32,998 nucleotides of DNA. Origin: Frankia sp. R82. GTDB taxonomy: Bacteria; Actinomycetota; Actinomycetes; Frankiales; Frankiaceae. A program made the translations under genes and the position numbers. Shown here in pieces: positions 7,245 to 32,754 of the stretch. Where the stretch lies: assembly GCF_023716925.1 (NCBI RefSeq), contig NZ_JAMQQG010000213.1, positions 31,203 through 64,200 of the forward strand, given 5' to 3'. The notes below the pieces were generated by a model. That model was given only the letters and a program-made list of their open reading frames with translations, ran no database searches and was not told where the DNA came from. Numbering within the stretch: the stretch's first letter is position 1; each line of letters opens with the position of its first letter.

Positions 7245-7511
7245 CTAGCCGCGCAGCACCTCGATTCCCGAGATCACTGCCAGCACCAGGAACGCCGCTG
7301 CGGCGATCCGGGTGATCACGGAGATCGGCAGGATCCGCAGCAGTCCGCGCCCGCCAGCGATGCCGAGCGCGGCGACCGTCCACAGGCCCAGCAGAGCTCC
7401 CAGCCAGACGCTCACCGGCGAGTCGAAACGGGCGGCGAGGTTGGCCGTGGTGATCTGGGTGAGGTCGCCGAGTTCGGCAAGGAACACAACGCCGAACGCG
7501 GTGACCGCCAC
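7245..7511 (-). CDS. GDT1/TMEM165-family transporter, C-terminal half
   Basis: The 88-residue segment holds three predicted membrane helices and the second family motif, ELGDLTQ, in place of the usual E-x-G-D-K/R-T/S, so a Leu replaces the basic residue. It ends 'AAAFLVLAVISGIEVLRG', a normal family C-terminus. It is in a different frame from the N-terminal half at 7412-7870 and continuous with it only after a -1 shift. In-frame codons upstream of the GTG at 7511 read ATFRR, a natural linker continuation, and no good Shine-Dalgarno precedes that GTG. I therefore read this as the second half of one broken or frameshifted gene, although separate single-domain GDT1 genes that pair up are known. 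Confidence 0.75.
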   Translation of the reverse strand: MAVTAFGVVFLAELGDLTQITTANLAARFDSPVSVWLGALLGLWTVAALGIAGGRGLLRILPISVITRIAAAAFLVLAVISGIEVLRG

Positions 7512-7870
7512 CCGTCGGAAGGTGGCCGTGCGCCGTCGCCGGCTGGCGTGCCATCGGCGCGAGCCTGACCCGCGGCACTGCCGTCCTCGTGCTGCCCGTC
7601 CTCGTCGCGGCCCTCCCGGAGCACCAGCACGGCACCCAGCAGGAACAGCACCATCGTGATCGCATCGACAAGGCGGCCTGGCAGGTGGGAGAAGGCACTA
7701 CCGGCCGCGACGGCCACCGTGACATGCACAAGGAAGGCGGAGGCCACCCCGATCCACACATAGATCGGCCGGAATCGGCTGCCCAGGACCAGGCTCGCGA
7801 CCATCGTCTTGTCAGGAAGTTCGGCGAGGAAGATGACGCCGAAAGTGACCAGAACCACGGTGATACTCAC
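7412..7870 (-). CDS. GDT1/TMEM165-family transporter, N-terminal half
   Basis: The open frame begins with GTG at 7870, preceded by an AGAGG Shine-Dalgarno nine bases upstream. It encodes three membrane helices, with the first family motif ELPDKT at about residues 16-21. An acidic linker (REGRDEDGQHEDG) follows. From about residue 110 the frame leaves the family sequence and runs on as Arg/Ser/Pro-rich nonsense to 7412, while the true continuation lies in the -1 frame (7245-7511). A single missing base somewhere in about 7515-7600 explains this. Family members export Mn2+ (or Ca2+) from the cytoplasm, and the upstream yybP-ykoY element supports a manganese role here. Confidence 0.75.
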   Translation of the reverse strand: MSITVVLVTFGVIFLAELPDKTMVASLVLGSRFRPIYVWIGVASAFLVHVTVAVAAGSAFSHLPGRLVDAITMVLFLLGAVLVLREGRDEDGQHEDGSAAGQARADGTPAGDGARPPSDGWRSPRSALCSLPNSATSPRSPRPTSPPVSTRR

Positions 7871-7911: not shown

Positions 7912-7943
7912 CCTTCGACCCGGCATGACTGCCGTGTCGAAGG
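7912..7943 (-). promoter_or_regulatory. Alternative hairpin (expression platform) of the Mn riboswitch
   Basis: On the minus strand CCTTCGAC (7943-7936) is perfectly complementary to GTCGAAGG (7919-7912), and CGGCA/TGCCG forms an inner stem (7934-7930 with 7925-7921). CCTTC is also the 3' strand of aptamer stem P1, so P1 and this hairpin exclude each other. That predicts an ON switch: Mn2+ stabilises P1 and prevents the hairpin. GGGC/GCCC can extend the stem. No T run follows, so the mode (termination without a U-tract, or translation) is undecided. Confidence 0.65.
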
Positions 7944-8128
7944 TCTCGCCCACCCGGCCGCGAAGCGGCCGGGCCCGGGCGCCGGGAACCCGTGAGCCAG
8001 CCCTTGGTGGGCTGGCAACGGGCGCCAGTATGTCGACGCACGGGCCGATGTGCGCTCCGCCGGCCAGGCGGACCATCGCGGTCTCGCGGCCGTCAGAGGC
8101 AGGCACTCGACGGGGCTACTCCCCTTCA
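7938..8128 (-). promoter_or_regulatory. yybP-ykoY (manganese) riboswitch aptamer
   Basis: Read on the minus strand, the RNA starts with GAAGGGGAGTAGCC (8127 down to 8114), the conserved 5' part of the yybP-ykoY motif. It ends with GGGCGAGACCTTCGA (7952 to 7938), the conserved 3' part with the GAGACC loop. GAAGG at 8127-8123 pairs with CCTTC at 7943-7939 to close stem P1. Between them are GC hairpins, including GCCAGCCC/GGGCTGGC and GGCCGCTTCGCGGCC. This class senses Mn2+ and commonly sits before GDT1-family and other Mn exporters, exactly the gene found 67 bases downstream. The interior is longer than a minimal member. Confidence 0.8.
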
Positions 8129-8275
8129 GGGATGAAGGCTACCCGCTCGACGGATGTGGTGCATCACCTCACGTTCCCGCCACCTGGTCATTCAGACGGC
8201 ACACGGAAGGACACGCCACCACACCGGCCATGCGCGTGGACATCACGCATTGCAGCACTAAATTTACGTGAAGTG

Positions 8276-9901
8276 ATGGACGATCTGGTCTCTTCCGAGT
8301 TCGGCGCGGCCGGTGATCCGGCCCCGGCGCCGATGGCGCTCGCCCGCGAGGCCACCGATCTCCGTCCGGTGATCAACGCCACGGGGGTGCTGCTGCACGG
8401 GGCCCTCGGCCGCGCGCCCCTGTCGGCAGCGGCCCGCGCCGCTGTCGACCTGGCCGCCGGCACGATCGACCTGGAGTTCGACCTGACCACCGGCCGGCGG
8501 CACCGCCGCGGTCACAGCGTGCTCGCTGCCCTGGCTACCGCGGTGCCGGCCGCGGCGGCGGTGCACATCGTCAACAACGAGGCGGCGGGGCTCGTCCTCG
8601 CGGTGTCGGCGCTGGCAGCGGGGCGGGAAGTGATCGTCAGCCGCGGTGAGCTCGGCGAGACCACCGACGGTCTGCGCCTGCCGGACCTGCTGGCAGCCAC
8701 CGGCGCCCGGCTTCGTGAGGTCGGCACCACCAACCGCACCACCCTCGGTGACTACGCGCGGGCGATTGGCCCGCAGACCGGTGTCGTGCTGCGGATTCAC
8801 AGCGCCGGCTATCAGGTGGTCGGGTTCACCGATCGGCCCGCCCTGAGCGATCTCGCCGAACTGTGCGCCGATCTCGGGGTCGCGCTGCTCGGCGACAGCG
8901 GGTCCGGGCTGCTGCACCCCGAGCCCCGCCTGCCCGACGAACCGGATGTCACCACCTGGCTGGACCAGGGCGTGACCGTGGTGCTCGCCGGCGGCGACCG
9001 GCTGCTCGGCGGCCCGCAGTGCGGCCTGCTGTTCGGCCACACCGGTCTGATCGACCGGATTCGGCGCCATCCGTCGTCCCCCGCCTATCAGGCCGGCAAG
9101 CTCACCCTCGCCGCGCTGGAAGCAACGCTGCGCCATGATCCGCCGGTGCGTCAGGCGCTGCGAGCCCGCCCCGAACACCTCGTGACCCGGGCCGAACGGC
9201 TAGCCCGGTGGCTGCGCCATGCCGGGGTTGCCGCGTCCGCCGTGGCCAGCCGTGCGTACATCGACGAAACCGTCGGTGCCCATGGTCTGCGCGGCGGCGA
9301 GCTGCCGAGCGCCGCGGTGGCCGTTGACTCGATCATCGCGATTCCGTTGCGCGACGGTGAGCCCGCCGTCCTCGGCCAGGTCGAGCAGGGCTGCTGTCTG
9401 CTGGATCTGCGCGCCGTGCCGGCCGAACTCGATCCGGTGCTCGGCGCCGCCGTGCTCGCGGCGGCCACGGCGATCGGGGCCACGGCGCTCACCGATCCAC
9501 CAACCGCCCCCCAGGCCCTGGCACCGCTTCTCTCGGGGAGCGCACCGGCCGGCCCGGGGCCGGTTCAGCTCGACCGTCCGATCCACAGGGAAGCCGCCGT
9601 CGCCGTCGCGCCACCGGTGAACGATCTGGCCGTGGGCCCCACCCGGTTGCTGACCCGGCTGCCGACCGAACCGGAACGGACGTTCGAGACTGACCCGCTC
9701 GGTGCCGAGCTTCCGGCCCGCATGGTGGAGACAGCCGACATGGACACGGTCGAGTCCGCGACGATCCCGCGCGTCCCCGGCCCGGCCCGGGCCGGCCCGG
9801 CCCATCCGGCACCCCACGAACGACTCTCCCACCAGCAGGCACCACACCACTACGCGTCGAGTTCGCCACACCCGCCGGCACCGGACCGGCAGGCGCCATG
9901 A
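8276..9901 (+). CDS. SelA-like protein lacking the PLP lysine
   Basis: The 541-residue product follows bacterial selenocysteine synthase SelA through its catalytic core: 'LRPVINATGVLLHGALGRA', 'VSRGELGETTDGLRLPDLL', 'LREVGTTNRTTLGDY', 'GDSGSGLL', 'LLGGPQCGLLFG', 'KLTLAALEATLR' and a C-terminal 'CCLLDLRAVPAE'. The PLP-binding lysine, expected before LLGGPQ (GDKLLGGPQ in E. coli), is Arg242 here (codon CGG, 8999-9001). Only about 33 residues precede the core, where E. coli SelA has over 80, so the N-terminal tRNA-binding part is missing. Roughly 130 Pro/Ala-rich residues extend the C-terminus. True Ser-to-Sec conversion therefore looks unlikely. The start is ATG 8276 or GTG 8273. No selB, selD or Sec tRNA is in the window. 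Confidence 0.82.
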   Translation: MDDLVSSEFGAAGDPAPAPMALAREATDLRPVINATGVLLHGALGRAPLSAAARAAVDLAAGTIDLEFDLTTGRRHRRGHSVLAALATAVPAAAAVHIVNNEAAGLVLAVSALAAGREVIVSRGELGETTDGLRLPDLLAATGARLREVGTTNRTTLGDYARAIGPQTGVVLRIHSAGYQVVGFTDRPALSDLAELCADLGVALLGDSGSGLLHPEPRLPDEPDVTTWLDQGVTVVLAGGDRLLGGPQCGLLFGHTGLIDRIRRHPSSPAYQAGKLTLAALEATLRHDPPVRQALRARPEHLVTRAERLARWLRHAGVAASAVASRAYIDETVGAHGLRGGELPSAAVAVDSIIAIPLRDGEPAVLGQVEQGCCLLDLRAVPAELDPVLGAAVLAAATAIGATALTDPPTAPQALAPLLSGSAPAGPGPVQLDRPIHREAAVAVAPPVNDLAVGPTRLLTRLPTEPERTFETDPLGAELPARMVETADMDTVESATIPRVPGPARAGPAHPAPHERLSHQQAPHHYASSSPHPPAPDRQAP

Positions 9902-10548
9902 GGCCGATCCGGCTGCTGGACCAGCCCGTCGTCCTGGATTTGCTACGCCGACTGTCCGCCGTCGGTGGCGGGGCCGTGCTGCTGTGTTACGGGCTGGTTC
10001 ATCTACTGGTCTGGCCGGGTGCGCCGACCGGCACGCCGGGCGAACGCTACCGCTGGAACGGTGACACCCATCTGCTCAGCTGGCTACCCACGGCCGTCGG
10101 GTGGTCGGTCGCCGCGATCCTGCTCTCGGCGACCGTACTGGGGTACACCGCCGCCGCCGCCGGGCTCGTCGGCCTGCCGGGGCTGCGCGGGCATCATCTC
10201 GGCGCCACGGCGGCAGCCTGTGCCACCTCTCTCGGGCTGTACGCGGTGACCTGGCCCGGCCTGGAACCAACCCCCACCGATTTCAGCGCCGGCCCGGTGA
10301 TCAGCGGACTGCTGCTGGCCTGCGTCCTTGCGACCGCCTGGGCGCGGCACTACCCGCCGTCGGTCGGCGGACCGTCCGGCCGTTCGGACGGCCGGGGCGC
10401 CGACCGGACGGGATCGGCCGCCGCGCCCTGGACGATCCCCGAGCGGCGCACGGGGTCCGAGCCGCGGGTCGTCAGGCCGTCCAGTTCGCGGACCAGGTTG
10501 AGTCGGGCTGACGGTTCCCACCGGCGCCGCGCCCACCCCGTGGAGTAG
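9898..10548 (+). CDS. Small membrane protein coupled to the SelA-like gene
   Basis: A 216-residue protein with about four hydrophobic helices (near residues 20-38, 60-80, 82-100 and 120-145) and a basic, Arg/Ser-rich tail. I do not recognise the family. Its ATG overlaps the stop of the SelA-like gene as ATGA, so the two are almost certainly co-translated and may act together. The last 200 bases overlap the end of the convergent HD-domain gene. The tail encoded there has low complexity, so the functional part probably ends near residue 150. Confidence 0.65.
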   Translation: MRPIRLLDQPVVLDLLRRLSAVGGGAVLLCYGLVHLLVWPGAPTGTPGERYRWNGDTHLLSWLPTAVGWSVAAILLSATVLGYTAAAAGLVGLPGLRGHHLGATAAACATSLGLYAVTWPGLEPTPTDFSAGPVISGLLLACVLATAWARHYPPSVGGPSGRSDGRGADRTGSAAAPWTIPERRTGSEPRVVRPSSSRTRLSRADGSHRRRAHPVE

Positions 10549-11156
10549 AGCGGCCCGTCGAGCAGGTGCCGCAGCGCCGCGGCCCGGCCCCGGCGCCACT
10601 GCCCGTCGTCAAGTCCGCCGTACTCCCGGCGCACCCGGCGGACGTACAGGTCGTAGCCGGCCGGCCCCCGCGCGAGGACGCGCAGATCCGCGTCGTTGAC
10701 CAGGGCCTCGTCCCGGCTGCGCGACCCATGGGACGCAGTGGCGAGCACCAGGCGGGCCACCGCGGCGCCGACCACCCGGGGGCAGCCCAGCTCAGCCAGG
10801 ATCCGGCTGGCGAGGTCCGCTGAGCGCCGCTCGTTGTCGGTGAGCTCGGGGTCGTACACCGCGTCGTGGAAGTACACCGCGAGGGTGCAGGCGGGAGCCA
10901 GCTCCTTGTCGCTGGCCTGCTGCTCGGCCGTCAGAAGCACCCGGAGCGCGGCCGTCGTCTCCGCGATGTGACGCAGGGTGTGATAGTGACGACCGGGTTG
11001 CTGGTAGCAGCGGGCGAGATCGACGAAGGCCCGCACCCGTTCGCCGACATCGGCCGCGACACCCGCGCCGACCAGCGCATCATCGAAAAGCCGAGCCAGC
11101 GGAGTACGCGGCCCGGCCAGGGCAGCCTCCCGGACGATGTTCACATTCCCTCCCAT
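10350..11156 (-). CDS. Predicted HD-type metal-dependent phosphohydrolase
   Basis: A 268-residue helical protein with the pattern of the uncharacterised HD-like phosphohydrolase family: 'RHYHTLRHIAETTAAL' (His residues), 'AVYFHDAVYDPELTDNERRSADLA' (HD pair followed by NE and S), and a later 'DADLRVLA' Asp. Such proteins bind metal through these His/Asp residues; the substrate is unknown. The ATG at 11156 and the in-frame GTG at 11144 are both possible starts; the GTG has GGGAGGG just upstream. The C-terminal 40 residues are Arg/Pro/Gly-rich and overlap the coding end of the convergent membrane-protein gene. Confidence 0.78.
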   Translation of the reverse strand: MGGNVNIVREAALAGPRTPLARLFDDALVGAGVAADVGERVRAFVDLARCYQQPGRHYHTLRHIAETTAALRVLLTAEQQASDKELAPACTLAVYFHDAVYDPELTDNERRSADLASRILAELGCPRVVGAAVARLVLATASHGSRSRDEALVNDADLRVLARGPAGYDLYVRRVRREYGGLDDGQWRRGRAAALRHLLDGPLYSTGWARRRWEPSARLNLVRELDGLTTRGSDPVRRSGIVQGAAADPVRSAPRPSERPDGPPTDGG

Positions 11157-11274
11157 CCACCCTCGCCTTCCCGGCCTCGCGCCGGTCCAAGCACCCTCGC
11201 ATGCCCGACCCGGCCCGGCCAGACCCGACGCCACCGGAACAACCCGGACCGACCAGGTCCGATCCGGCGCAAGC

Positions 11275-11304
11275 CGATCCGATCCATCCGATCCATCCGA
11301 TCCG
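11275..11304. repeat. Short tandem repeat (9-base unit)
   Basis: Slightly diverged copies of GATCCATCC run in tandem between the HD-domain gene and the small gene at 11367. It is probably simple-sequence DNA in a promoter region. Confidence 0.5.
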
Positions 11305-11366
11305 CCCGACCCGATCAGGCCACCCCGACATTTGCCATTGTCGAACACATGTGCGATTTTTGGGCG

Positions 11367-11576: not shown

Positions 11577-11783
11577 TGGAACAAAAACCAAAAAAACGTT
11601 CAAACTTCACCAAAGGTTCATATCGGTGCAGCCGCTGACCGATAGGCGTTGCTCTCCCGTTCGCCGTAATCGCCACCCATAGAGATGATTAGGTGCCAGT
11701 TGTGCACCAGGTGGAATTATTGTGATCTTTGTGGGATGGATGGTGCGCCCGGCCCACTTCCTGCAGCATTCAGGGAGCCTCTC
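11577..11783 (+). promoter_or_regulatory. AT-rich upstream region of the halogenase-like gene with inverted repeats
   Basis: This 207-base region is the most AT-rich in the window outside the left end. TATCGGT (11621-11627) and ACCGATA (11638-11644) form an inverted repeat whose centre (CAG/CTG) also pairs, giving a hairpin with one bulged G. A second inverted repeat, GGTGC (11691-11695) with GCACC (11703-11707), lies closer to the gene. Either could be an operator or a terminator of the small upstream gene. The gene's Shine-Dalgarno is AGGGAG at 11772-11777. Confidence 0.5.
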
Positions 11784-13433
11784 ATGATCGGGTACGACTA
11801 TTCGGTCGCAATCCTCGGCAGCGGCATCGCTGGATCGGCGCTGGCGAACATCCTCGCCCGCCATGGCCACAGCGTGGTGCTGGTCGACAGCGGCAGCCAC
11901 CCCCGCTTCGCCCTGGGGGAATCAACGATCGGCGAAACGACCTATCTTCTCAAACTTCTGGCCGAGCGCTTCGACGTACCCGAACTCGCCCACGTCAGCA
12001 GCTTCGAAGCAGTACGCTCGAGCGTCACCTCGGCCTGCGGCGTCAAGCGCAACTTCGGTTTTGTCTACCACCGCGACGGGTGCGTCCAGGACCCCGCGGA
12101 GGTGACCCAGTGCAGCGTCGCGGAGTTTCCGAACGGCCCGGAGATGCACATGCATCGCCAGGACATCGACTCCTATCTCTTCTATACCGCCGTTCGCTAC
12201 GGGGCGGTACCCCGCCAACGGACGACGGTCGAACGGGTGGAGTTCACCGCTGACGCGGCGACCCTCACCACCCGTTCCGGGGAGACGCTTCGCGTGCGGT
12301 ATGTCGTCGACGCATCGGGCCGTAATTCCGTGCTGGCGAACACGTTCGGCCTGCGGGAGGATCCGTGCCGGTTCCGCACGAACTCCCGTACGCTGTTCAC
12401 CCACATGGTCGGGGTGACGCCGTTCGACGACGTCACCACGCCCAGCGGCCAGCCCACCCGCTGGCACCAGGGCACTCTGCACCACATCTTCGACGGTGGT
12501 TGGCTGTGGGTGATCCCGTTCGACAACCACCGCTGCGCCACCAATCCGCTGTGCAGCGTCGGGCTCAACCTCGACGACCAGCGCTTCCCCCGTGAGCCGG
12601 GCCGCACCGCGGATGACGAATGGGCCGCCTTCCTCGATCGTTTTCCGAGCGTGGCGCGGCAGTTCGCCGCCGCCCGCCCGGCCTGGAACTGGGTGTCCAC
12701 CGGGCGCACCCAGTACTCCACCAGCCGCACCGTCGGCGACCGGTGGGCGATGATGAGTCACGCCGCCGGCGCGATCGACGCATTGTTCTCCCGGGGTATG
12801 GCCAACACGATGCAGGTGATCTACGCCTTCGTTCCGACCCTGCTGGCCGCGCTCGAGGACGGCGACCTGTCCGCCGAGCGCTTCGCCTATCTCGACACGC
12901 TCAACCAGACCATCCTCGACGTCAACGACCAGCTCGTCCACGGTTCGTATGTGTCGTTTCGGGATTTCGACCTGTGGCGGGCCTGGTCGAAGGTCTGGTT
13001 CATGGCCTGGAACATGGGCATCGCCCGGATCACCGGCACCTACTTCGGCTATCTGGAAAAGGGCGACCGCGCGCTGTTCGACAACCTGCTCGACGCCCCG
13101 CATCCGGGCACCTTCTGCCCGGACCTCCCGGAGTTCCAGCCACTGTTCGCCGCGCTGTCCGCCGTGATGGTCGACGTCGAACAGGAACGCCTGACCCCGT
13201 CGGCGGCGGTCAAGCGCCTGGCCGGGCTGCTCGGCGGGGCGGCGTTCCTACCGACACCGTTGCGACTCGGCGACGTGCTGCGCCGCTGGCACGACGGTTC
13301 CTTCGAAGCCCAGCGCCAGATGTACGAATGGGGTCGCAGCAGCTCGCCGGCCTCGATGCGGCGCTGGTACGACTATGACCTCGACACGCTGCTGGCCCGC
13401 ACCGGCGGGACGCCGACGTCGGTGAGCTACTGA
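11784..13433 (+). CDS. FAD-dependent halogenase-like enzyme
   Basis: A 549-residue flavoprotein. The N-terminal Rossmann motif is GSGIAGSALANILARHGH (about residues 12-29), followed by RFALGESTIGET, where halogenases have GESxxP-like sequence, and VKRNFGF with Lys88, near where the catalytic lysine lies. The halogenase signature WxWxIP is complete as WLWVIP at residues 240-245. FADH2-dependent halogenases with these motifs make hypohalous acid and chlorinate aromatic or carrier-bound substrates (family knowledge). The substrate cannot be read from sequence, and a non-halogenating monooxygenase remains possible. The ATG has AGGGAG seven bases upstream. It lies 2.3 kb before the AHBA cassette; no flavin reductase is adjacent. 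Confidence 0.8.
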   Translation: MIGYDYSVAILGSGIAGSALANILARHGHSVVLVDSGSHPRFALGESTIGETTYLLKLLAERFDVPELAHVSSFEAVRSSVTSACGVKRNFGFVYHRDGCVQDPAEVTQCSVAEFPNGPEMHMHRQDIDSYLFYTAVRYGAVPRQRTTVERVEFTADAATLTTRSGETLRVRYVVDASGRNSVLANTFGLREDPCRFRTNSRTLFTHMVGVTPFDDVTTPSGQPTRWHQGTLHHIFDGGWLWVIPFDNHRCATNPLCSVGLNLDDQRFPREPGRTADDEWAAFLDRFPSVARQFAAARPAWNWVSTGRTQYSTSRTVGDRWAMMSHAAGAIDALFSRGMANTMQVIYAFVPTLLAALEDGDLSAERFAYLDTLNQTILDVNDQLVHGSYVSFRDFDLWRAWSKVWFMAWNMGIARITGTYFGYLEKGDRALFDNLLDAPHPGTFCPDLPEFQPLFAALSAVMVDVEQERLTPSAAVKRLAGLLGGAAFLPTPLRLGDVLRRWHDGSFEAQRQMYEWGRSSSPASMRRWYDYDLDTLLARTGGTPTSVSY

Positions 13434-31105: not shown

Positions 31106-31196
31106 GGAGGCTTCGCCTAGTCCGGTCTATGGCGCCGCACTGCTAATGCGGTTGGGGGCTTCAACCCCCTCCCGGGTTCAAATCCCGGAGCCTCCG
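31106..31196 (+). tRNA. tRNA-Ser (GCT anticodon)
   Basis: A class II tRNA of 91 bases. Acceptor GGAGGCT pairs with AGCCTCC, the anticodon arm CCGCA/TGCGG encloses CTGCTAA (anticodon GCT at 31142-31144), the long variable arm is GGGGG/CCCCC, and the T arm is CCGGG/CCCGG with TTCAAAT. Discriminator G is present and CCA is not encoded. Its 3' end is 71 bases from the stop of an integrase gene that reads toward it, so it is a likely attachment site. Confidence 0.95.
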
Positions 31197-31267
31197 CCCT
31201 TCGCTCCCGGGGCCAGCCTCGTCGGCTGGTCCCTGTGAGCAGCGGAAACACCTTCGCCCCACGTCAT

Positions 31268-32754
31268 CTAGGGTCCCTCGACCGTCCTGGTACCCACATG
31301 GTCCCCACGCCGCGCGGCGCGCGGTATCGCTGCCGCCACTGTCTCGGCCGCCGTCTGCCCGGACGAACGCAGCAGATGGACGTACAGCGCCCCGGTGATT
31401 GATGGCGTGGAGTGACCGAGCCGCTTGGACACCAGCGCGATGTCGACCCCCTCGGCGAGCTGAATACTCGCGCTGGAATGCCGCAGGTCGTGAAGGCGGC
31501 GCGGCGACAGGAGCGACCTGCCCAGCTCGCACCCGATGCCCACGTCGACCGGCAGCGTCAGCCTCGCCCGCTTCCCGGGCATCCCGACGACCGACACCAC
31601 GGTGACGTCCCCGACGGGCTCCCGGTCGACATAAAGCGTCCAACGGCCGACTGGCTGCCGGTACCGCTCCCCCACGACCACTTCGTCGCCACCCGCGGAC
31701 GCCGACGCCCGGATGGCCGCACACAGTCCCGCTCGTCGGGCGATCTGCTGCATCCTCCGGGTGACGTACTGCGGGTCGAGGTGCCGTCCGGACGGGTGAA
31801 CATCAGGTTCCGGAGCTGAACCGGCTGCCCGTGCTCGTCGGGAAGTACTCCGTTGTCCCAGCCGGGGCCGACTGCGTCGCGCTCGTCGTCCTGGACGAGT
31901 CGGTGCCCGAGCAAGGCGCCGAGCGTCGTCGAGTCCAGGTCGACCTTCCGGCGCCCGCTGCGGGTCTTCGGTGCCCAGACGCCGTACTCGGTGTCGTTCT
32001 TCACGATCTGCTTCGTGATCGTCAAGACGGAGCGCTCCTCGTCGAGGCCCGTCCAGGCCGCGCCGCATGCTTCCCCGCGGCGCAGGCCGTGCAGGGCGAT
32101 CAGCTCGTACATGGCTGCGAGCCGGTCGCTGGCCGCCTCGTCGAGGAACGCGCCGACCTCGTCGGCCTCCCACGGTTCGACCTCCCGCGCCGTGTAGGCG
32201 GGCAGCTCGACCCCGATCGCCGGATTAAAATCGACCATCCGCTGCTTGAGCGCGTCGTTCAAAGCGGTCTTGAGCATCTCGAAGACGTCCGCCACCGTCG
32301 CCGGACCGATCGGCCGACCACGACCCGCCGCCTTCTTCAGGGCTGTGTCGATGTGGTCGGCCCGCAGCGCGCTCAGCGGCATCTCGCCGAGCGTCGGCAC
32401 CAGATGCAGCCGAATAAACTGCTCGTACCGGTTCGATGTTGTCGGGCGCAGCGCGTTTTTCCGGCTGTGCCAGTCCCGCAGGTAAGCGCCGACGGTCAGA
32501 TTGCCGATGTGCTGCCGACCCGACCGAACCCTGGCCATCGCCTTTTCGCCGTCGACCTCGGCCTGCTTCTTCGTCGCGAACCCCGAGTCGCTTATCTCGG
32601 CCTTCCCAACGAGCGGGACCAGCTCCTTCGGCACTCGGAAACGGTAGCCCCAGGCCCCATGGCTGCGCTTCTCAAGTTCGGGGCACTTCCCGCGGCCATA
32701 CTTCTGGCCGGCCGCGTCTCGGCACCCACAGAGCTTCTCAGCTTTGACCTTCAT
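31268..32754 (-). pseudogene. Tyrosine recombinase (integrase), frameshifted
   Basis: Phage-type integrase with its start at ATG 32754. The first frame (to about 31780) carries the SAM-like core-binding domain ('LTVGAYLRDWHSRKNALRPTTSNRYEQFIRLHL') and the first catalytic Arg in LIALHGLRRGEACG. It breaks near 31779-31783, where one missing C shifts RPDGT into a nonsense tail. The other frame continues correctly ('LDPQYVTRRMQQIARRAGL') to HDLRHSSAS, LGHSTPSITGALYVHL (with the nucleophile Tyr) and the stop at 31268. About 68 extra residues lie before the HxLRH box. All catalytic residues survive, so this is a recent frameshift or a sequencing error. It would have inserted the element at tRNA-Ser. 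Confidence 0.85.

Follow-up and report, generated by a model that had tools for sequence, protein, structure and literature searches.

The SelA-like gene of Frankia sp. R82 can be read as encoding a protein that is derived from SelA and that, within a clade of three species, has turned pseudoenzyme in the absence of the selenocysteine (Sec) pathway, a reading to which we give a probability of roughly 0.5. The evolutionary part of this reading is well supported, while how the protein works is something that we infer. Particularly, as judged from sequence, the protein of this clade is probably non-catalytic, given loss of the catalytic lysine along with other active-site residues. The DNA analysed, here termed the window, is a stretch of 32,998 nucleotides, and ‘window’ is used as well to label the species, genome, clade, and protein to which that stretch belongs. 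Features are collected in Table 1.

That the ORF at 8276-9901 (+) is of the SelA family, as the first-pass annotation proposed, is agreed upon by Pfam SelA (253.5 bits), by TIGR00474 (316.2 bits, cut-off 267.9), and by PDB SelA chains (E ~1e-54 to 1e-50). The window protein, that is, has the same family and PLP domain as bacterial SelA (TIGR00474; PDB 3w1h, 8uzw). A structural model of it has a mean pLDDT of 32. The TIGR00474 match begins at profile position 68, and the tRNASec-binding N-terminal domain therefore is missing. The reading frame does stay open 5' of the gene as far as 7925, and a hidden N-terminal domain was sought there, but 12 aligned Frankia differ in this stretch by indels of lengths not divisible by three, so that the candidate was rejected. 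The suggestion that this domain is nearly absent consequently stands on two grounds, i.e., where the profile begins and the non-coding nature, by comparison, of the 5' stretch. In the same alignment the GTG start at 8273 is kept in 12/12 Frankia, with the ATG at 8276 replaced by ATT in 2/12. The A+T-rich CTAAATTTACGT immediately preceding the start may represent a -10-like element of a short-leader or leaderless mRNA.

Table 1. Features of the SelA-like gene and its neighbour in window coordinates (residues numbered from ATG 8276; ‘role’ refers to the portion of PMC4607533 drawn upon here)
Feature	Position	Strand	Remarks
A+T-rich CTAAATTTACGT	8258..8269	+	immediately 5' of SelA-like start; conserved in part
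SelA-like CDS	8273..9901	+	conserved start GTG 8273; ATG 8276 is the next codon; stop TGA 9899-9901
SelA / PLP fold domain	8363..9418	+	approximately residues 30-381
Gly239 at Ser282	8990..8992	+	PLP phosphate contact; by alignment; role from PMC4607533
Arg242, codon CGG	8999..9001	+	Schiff-base lysine position, Aquifex Lys285 (GDK>GDR LLGGPQ)
Pro269 at Arg312	9080..9082	+	selenophosphate binding; by alignment; role from PMC4607533
Gln272 at Arg315	9089..9091	+	selenophosphate binding; by alignment; role from PMC4607533
Lys275	9098..9100	+	sole lysine of window protein; Lys in 44/44 aligned SelA proteins
Low-complexity linker of tail	9515..9733	+	start approximate; length varies between species
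Tail motif ADMDTVESATIP	9734..9769	+	form conserved in Frankia
MemP, small hydrophobic, probably membrane protein	9898..10548	+	ATG overlaps SelA-like stop (ATGA)

Alignment on Lys285 of Aquifex SelA confirms that the PLP (Schiff-base) lysine of the window protein is replaced, by Arg242. The first-pass annotation held as well that every core motif except this lysine is present, and here the alignment says otherwise, with several more gone relative to 26 other SelA sequences of the actinobacterial class. This canonical reference set consists of 24 class loci and two records from the plasmid collection; of 30 class loci, six (L066, L070, L072, L073, L078, and L089) were left out, SelA not having been extracted from them. 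In the window protein HTNLGR is without its T-N, EIGDGFR without its I-G, LKVHPSN without its K and S-N, and VDK without its D; the GGGGAP loop is missing, as are the residues equivalent to Ser282, Arg312, and Arg315. Several of these losses are shared among relatives, while others are confined to the Arg clade or to the window species. In 18/18 Frankiaceae proteins HTNLGR has lost T-N, EIGDGFR has lost I-G, and LKVHPSN has lost K and N; the GGGGAP loop is gone in the 17 that are readable there, and VDK is without its D in 16/18. Across all the Frankiaceae proteins, 94 of 141 near-invariant SelA columns are retained.

Roles for Lys285, Arg86, Arg119, Arg312, Arg315, and Ser282 are as given in the part of PMC4607533 upon which we draw. 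Of the selenophosphate-binding residues Arg86, Arg312, and Arg315, just the first is found in the window protein (as Arg46), the other two being Pro and Gln; retained also, by alignment, are the arginine at Arg119 and Asp241 (Asp284). The losses are unevenly distributed. At Ser282 the window species has Gly, the other 11 Frankia aligned have Ser, and the six members of a second genus (g5) have Cys. At Arg312 the window species alone has Pro, the 17 remaining Frankiaceae proteins keeping Arg, while at Arg315 there is Gln in the three species having arginine at the PLP position (‘Arg species’) and also in G006 and G007, with Arg in the other 13. Residue 102, in turn, is Asn in those Frankia with the PLP lysine (‘Lys Frankia’) and Glu in the Arg clade. 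An earlier thought was that the protein may be an enzyme using another lysine. There is indeed one candidate, Lys275, but that lysine is present in all 44 aligned proteins. Since every aligned SelA has it beside the lysine at position 242, nothing marks Lys275 as a new Schiff-base residue.

Within Frankiaceae, truncated SelA of this kind was found in two genera. An N-truncated SelA scoring over the cut-off was found in 18 of 35 Frankiaceae genomes, i.e., in 12 of 13 Frankia and in 6/6 of g5, and in 0/16 genomes from five other genera of the family, where two weak matches of ~20 bits (G023, G026) were excluded from the SelA count. The thirteenth Frankia genome, G009, has solely the C-terminal SelA part, the gene being cut by the contig start, and was kept out of the 18 as a fragment. 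In all 18 the N-terminal domain is absent, with profile starts of 66-74. For a control, 393 Actinomycetes genomes were sampled, among which 102 outside of Frankiaceae have a non-fragment SelA match; profile starts there are 2-4 in 99 and 33-53 in the other three. A plasmid collection holds SelA in 150 records, the best 2 of which both have the N-terminal domain.

As to the PLP position, there is lysine in 15 of the 18 Frankiaceae proteins and arginine in the window species, G012, and G008. Relatives with lysine had been named in advance as a result that would count against a conserved Arg subfamily, and such relatives are in the majority: With Lys in 15/18 proteins, arginine is no family-wide trait. 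What survives of the suggestion is a single clade of three species. When the active-site columns are excluded, the tree unites the 18 Frankiaceae proteins in one group (support 100/99), within which the Arg species form one clade (100/100). That Frankiaceae group joins Nonomuraea plus two sequences of family f17 (99/96), although the closest sister is weakly determined (90/65). The Arg codons in the three Arg species are CGG, CGA, and AGG. These would fit a single AAG-to-AGG change followed by synonymous changes, with the arginine then having arisen late. Sequencing error, or a single-genome oddity, was rejected as an explanation of Arg242, as three species have arginine and do so using three different codons.

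A search of the window genome (95% complete, 370 contigs) for selB, selD, and tRNA-Sec, as earlier advised, returned none of the three: no selB or selD over cut-off and no true tRNA-Sec. Four tRNA-Sec matches were seen, one of them over cut-off, and all are tRNA-Ser or tRNA-Cys according to ARAGORN; the one at C44 (48.8 bits, cut-off 47), for example, is given as tRNA-Ser(TGA). A SelB match of 204 bits was rejected as well, being EF-Tu by its translation, and the best SelD match resembles ThiL by eye. SelB and SelD are over cut-off in 0/35 Frankiaceae genomes, five of which are single-contig, with SelB matches in the other genomes assessed by score and frame length alone. Among the 102 SelA genomes of the control (SelA fragments G225 and G363 having been removed prior to the co-occurrence count), SelD is over cut-off in 101, the one exception giving a SelB match, while SelB at E<=1e-70 is found in 73. 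SelB consequently is a weak yardstick, and it is SelD that carries the argument. The window genome, moreover, has a single SelA match, so that the gene is no decaying copy next to a genuine SelA, that being the other finding which, it had been said, would undo the proposal.

The gene which follows, memP, encodes a product with no Pfam or NCBIfam match at E<=0.01, for which four long helices are predicted (by a low-confidence model, pLDDT 48). A MemP profile built from 14 proteins finds it in 19 of the 35 Frankiaceae genomes, i.e., in 13/13 Frankia, 6/6 g5, and 0/16 others; these are the same 19 genomes that have SelA, if the G009 fragment is counted, and MemP so far has been found in those two genera only, the 35 genomes being what was searched. 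As noted at first pass, the SelA-like stop overlaps the MemP start. With starts chosen mechanically, this 4-base overlap is present in 10 of the 11 Frankia for which it was measured and in 1/6 of g5, where the other loci have the MemP start at +13 to +496 from the SelA-like gene (G006 was left out of this count, as its gene runs off the contig, and in G009 the overlap was read by eye). To the earlier question of whether the membrane protein always follows, the answer is that in Frankia it mostly does so with an overlap, but that it does not always follow closely in g5 and is a remnant in G003. Of the closed Frankia genomes compared, that of G003 is the smallest; its MemP is reduced to 59 aa (L052:8363-8539), and its SelA-like gene, of the Lys type, is intact. 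With its dN/dS of 0.27-0.60, MemP is less constrained and evolves faster than SelA. The neighbourhood of the pair has largely the same gene order in the two genera, with G003 lacking two neighbours. Given one clade and conserved gene order, common descent alone could explain the co-occurrence of SelA and MemP.

An antisense gene (10350-11348, -), HD-domain-like by eye, overlaps the 3' end of memP, and within this overlap the MemP C-terminus is nearly identical among the three Arg species. Further on, at 11685-13433 (+), a gene encodes an FAD-dependent protein with relatives among the tryptophan halogenases (a match over the Pfam cut-off) and among QhpG/GoxB/LodB-type proteins (matches that stay under the NCBIfam cut-offs), and this gene adjoins the locus in 12/12 of the longer relatives' loci (L050-L061). 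On the other side lies a divergent gene for a GDT1-type transporter (7245-7861, -). In the window it is split over two reading frames, which is due to a frameshift or to sequencing error, the halves being in one frame in G012, G008, G001, and G018, going by tblastn starts. Its leader (~7930-8150, -) has blocks GGGGAGTAGCC, GACATACTGGCG, and GGGCGAGACC, conserved in most of 12 Frankia, which we take to resemble the yybP-ykoY manganese riboswitch; in the window Rfam scores this leader at 9.3 bits, where the cut-off is 45, and it has none over cut-off in the loci of 7 relatives. Toward the window's end (31106-32754) a tRNA-Ser gene is followed by an ORF (31558-32754, -) that by eye resembles a phage-type integrase, together possibly the boundary of an integrated element.

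Beyond the SelA core the protein is extended by a tail that is 52% Pro/Ala/Gly/Ser/Thr, in keeping with the long Pro/Ala-rich tail first described. The low-complexity stretch following the core ranges from 22 to 191 residues among 11 Frankia. A motif of ADMDTVESATIP form is found in 11/11 of the Frankia read, this being a pattern that was defined after viewing those same sequences. The six g5 proteins terminate in D[EA][VA]TL[QH], an ending which may be related to the Frankia motif. The tail motif varies at synonymous sites, and with a pN/pS of 0.48, versus 0.28 for the core, it is the less constrained of the two.

Selection on the core was estimated from 12 chosen pairs, G006 having been left out (gene runs off contig). 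The three Arg-clade pairs give a core dN/dS of 0.19-0.23 and the nine Lys pairs one of 0.13-0.24, and the Arg-clade values imply something other than a simple pseudogene. Changes on the window tip, in addition, avoid SelA-invariant columns (3/123 vs 17/169, p 0.01). Two of the three changes that do fall at SelA-invariant sites on the window branch are at active-site residues, which also fits with early decay.

That fit with early decay introduces what we view as an unlikely, but not negligible, account of these observations, namely that the protein is a dying relic, one which in most Frankia kept a minor role after loss of the Sec pathway and which now is decaying in the window clade, with the Lys-to-Arg change an early sign of that decay. 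Stepwise loss of the active site, greatest in the window species, would be expected of such a relic, MemP already is broken in G003, and the tail varies and is of low complexity. None of the three Arg species has a broken frame, however, their arginine is maintained with three different codons, and both the avoidance of SelA-invariant columns and a dN/dS near that of Lys pairs speak against decay. Less probable still is that the protein is an enzyme even now, with PLP held non-covalently or via Lys275, and with Arg242 giving rise to slow or different chemistry. Lys275, Arg46 (Arg86), the arginine at Arg119, and Asp241 (Asp284) are all in place. Lys275, as noted, is nonetheless present in every aligned SelA, and loss in the window protein of the equivalents of Arg312, Arg315, and Ser282, together with the shift of residue 102 from Asn in Lys Frankia to Glu in the Arg clade, makes continued catalysis improbable.

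Strongly disfavoured, to the point of being scarcely credible, is a true selenocysteine synthase for which the remaining pathway was missed in a draft genome. The score is over the NCBI equivalog cut-off for SelA, and the assembly is a draft of 370 contigs at 95% completeness, but SelB and SelD are lacking over cut-off from single-contig Frankiaceae genomes as well, the window genome has no true tRNA-Sec, and the protein has neither N-terminal domain nor Schiff-base lysine.

The pseudoenzyme reading may be set out as follows. The SelA core has lost several invariant motifs, with most members retaining Lys285 and the selenophosphate arginines, and in most Frankia the protein may be a PLP enzyme whose substrate is not Ser-tRNA but an amino compound that is small and perhaps phosphorylated. 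In the window clade Lys285 is replaced by Arg and Arg315 by Gln, with the window species additionally lacking Arg312 and Ser282. No Schiff base would form there, although PLP can still be bound by a protein with arginine in that place, and the pseudoenzyme would serve instead as a structural subunit or as one that binds a ligand, with MemP keeping it close to the membrane, perhaps by way of the SelA-like tail. More tentatively, the result could be a membrane-linked ligand sensor or scaffold, kept by selection and joined to MemP through the linker and C-terminal motif. The first-pass annotation's idea of a repurposed, non-catalytic SelA fold within a membrane module is upheld to the extent that Sec machinery is lacking, the two genes co-occur, they mostly overlap in Frankia, and dN/dS is well below 1; it is corrected in that the arginine is not family-wide.

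There is precedent for SelA that has outlived its pathway. Cravedi et al. 2015 (PMC4607533), in the portion of that report drawn upon here, describe an H. pylori SelA lacking the N-terminal domain and the Sec pathway in which PLP binding and the phosphate-binding arginines are kept (i.e., Lys285, Arg86, Arg312, and Arg315) and for which dN/dS is well below 1. The same portion reports an independent loss of the N-terminal domain in some Frankia (F. alni, CcI3), with other Sec genes absent, and on that account a truncated SelA standing alone in Frankia is nothing new. Like those of H. pylori, F. alni, and CcI3, the window protein is a core without the tRNASec-binding N-terminal domain, in a genome where other Sec genes were not found, and its clade too displays purifying selection. 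Unlike the H. pylori protein as there described, it is without Lys285, Arg312, and Arg315, and from bacterial SelA generally it differs in lacking as well the N-terminal domain, several invariant motifs, and any Sec pathway that could be found. The PLP lysine is retained by most Frankiaceae proteins but not by those of the window clade.

A SelA-like PLP fold is shared also with TIGR03576 (MJ0158 type) and TIGR01437 (DgaE-type ammonia lyase), but at 21.6 of 304.45 and 30.8 of 385.3 bits, respectively, the window protein is far under both cut-offs and is a member of neither family. MJ0158-type proteins, going by the above-noted part of PMC4607533, are without affinity for tRNASec. The Frankia proteins fall instead among actinobacterial SelA, as placed by a tree that held no TIGR03576 or TIGR01437 member. 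What apparently is new, relative to that same part of the literature, is the Arg clade with its stepwise loss of the active site, along with the membrane partner and the tail motif.

Many proteins annotated as selenocysteine synthase have been argued, in the part of PMC4607533 considered here, to have another role, and the window protein illustrates that exceeding the equivalog cut-off for SelA is no proof of selenocysteine synthesis. Frankia provides, within one gene order, a graded series that runs from an intact active site through partial loss to a lysine-less clade, and it is this series, in combination with MemP, that makes the hidden function of these proteins testable.
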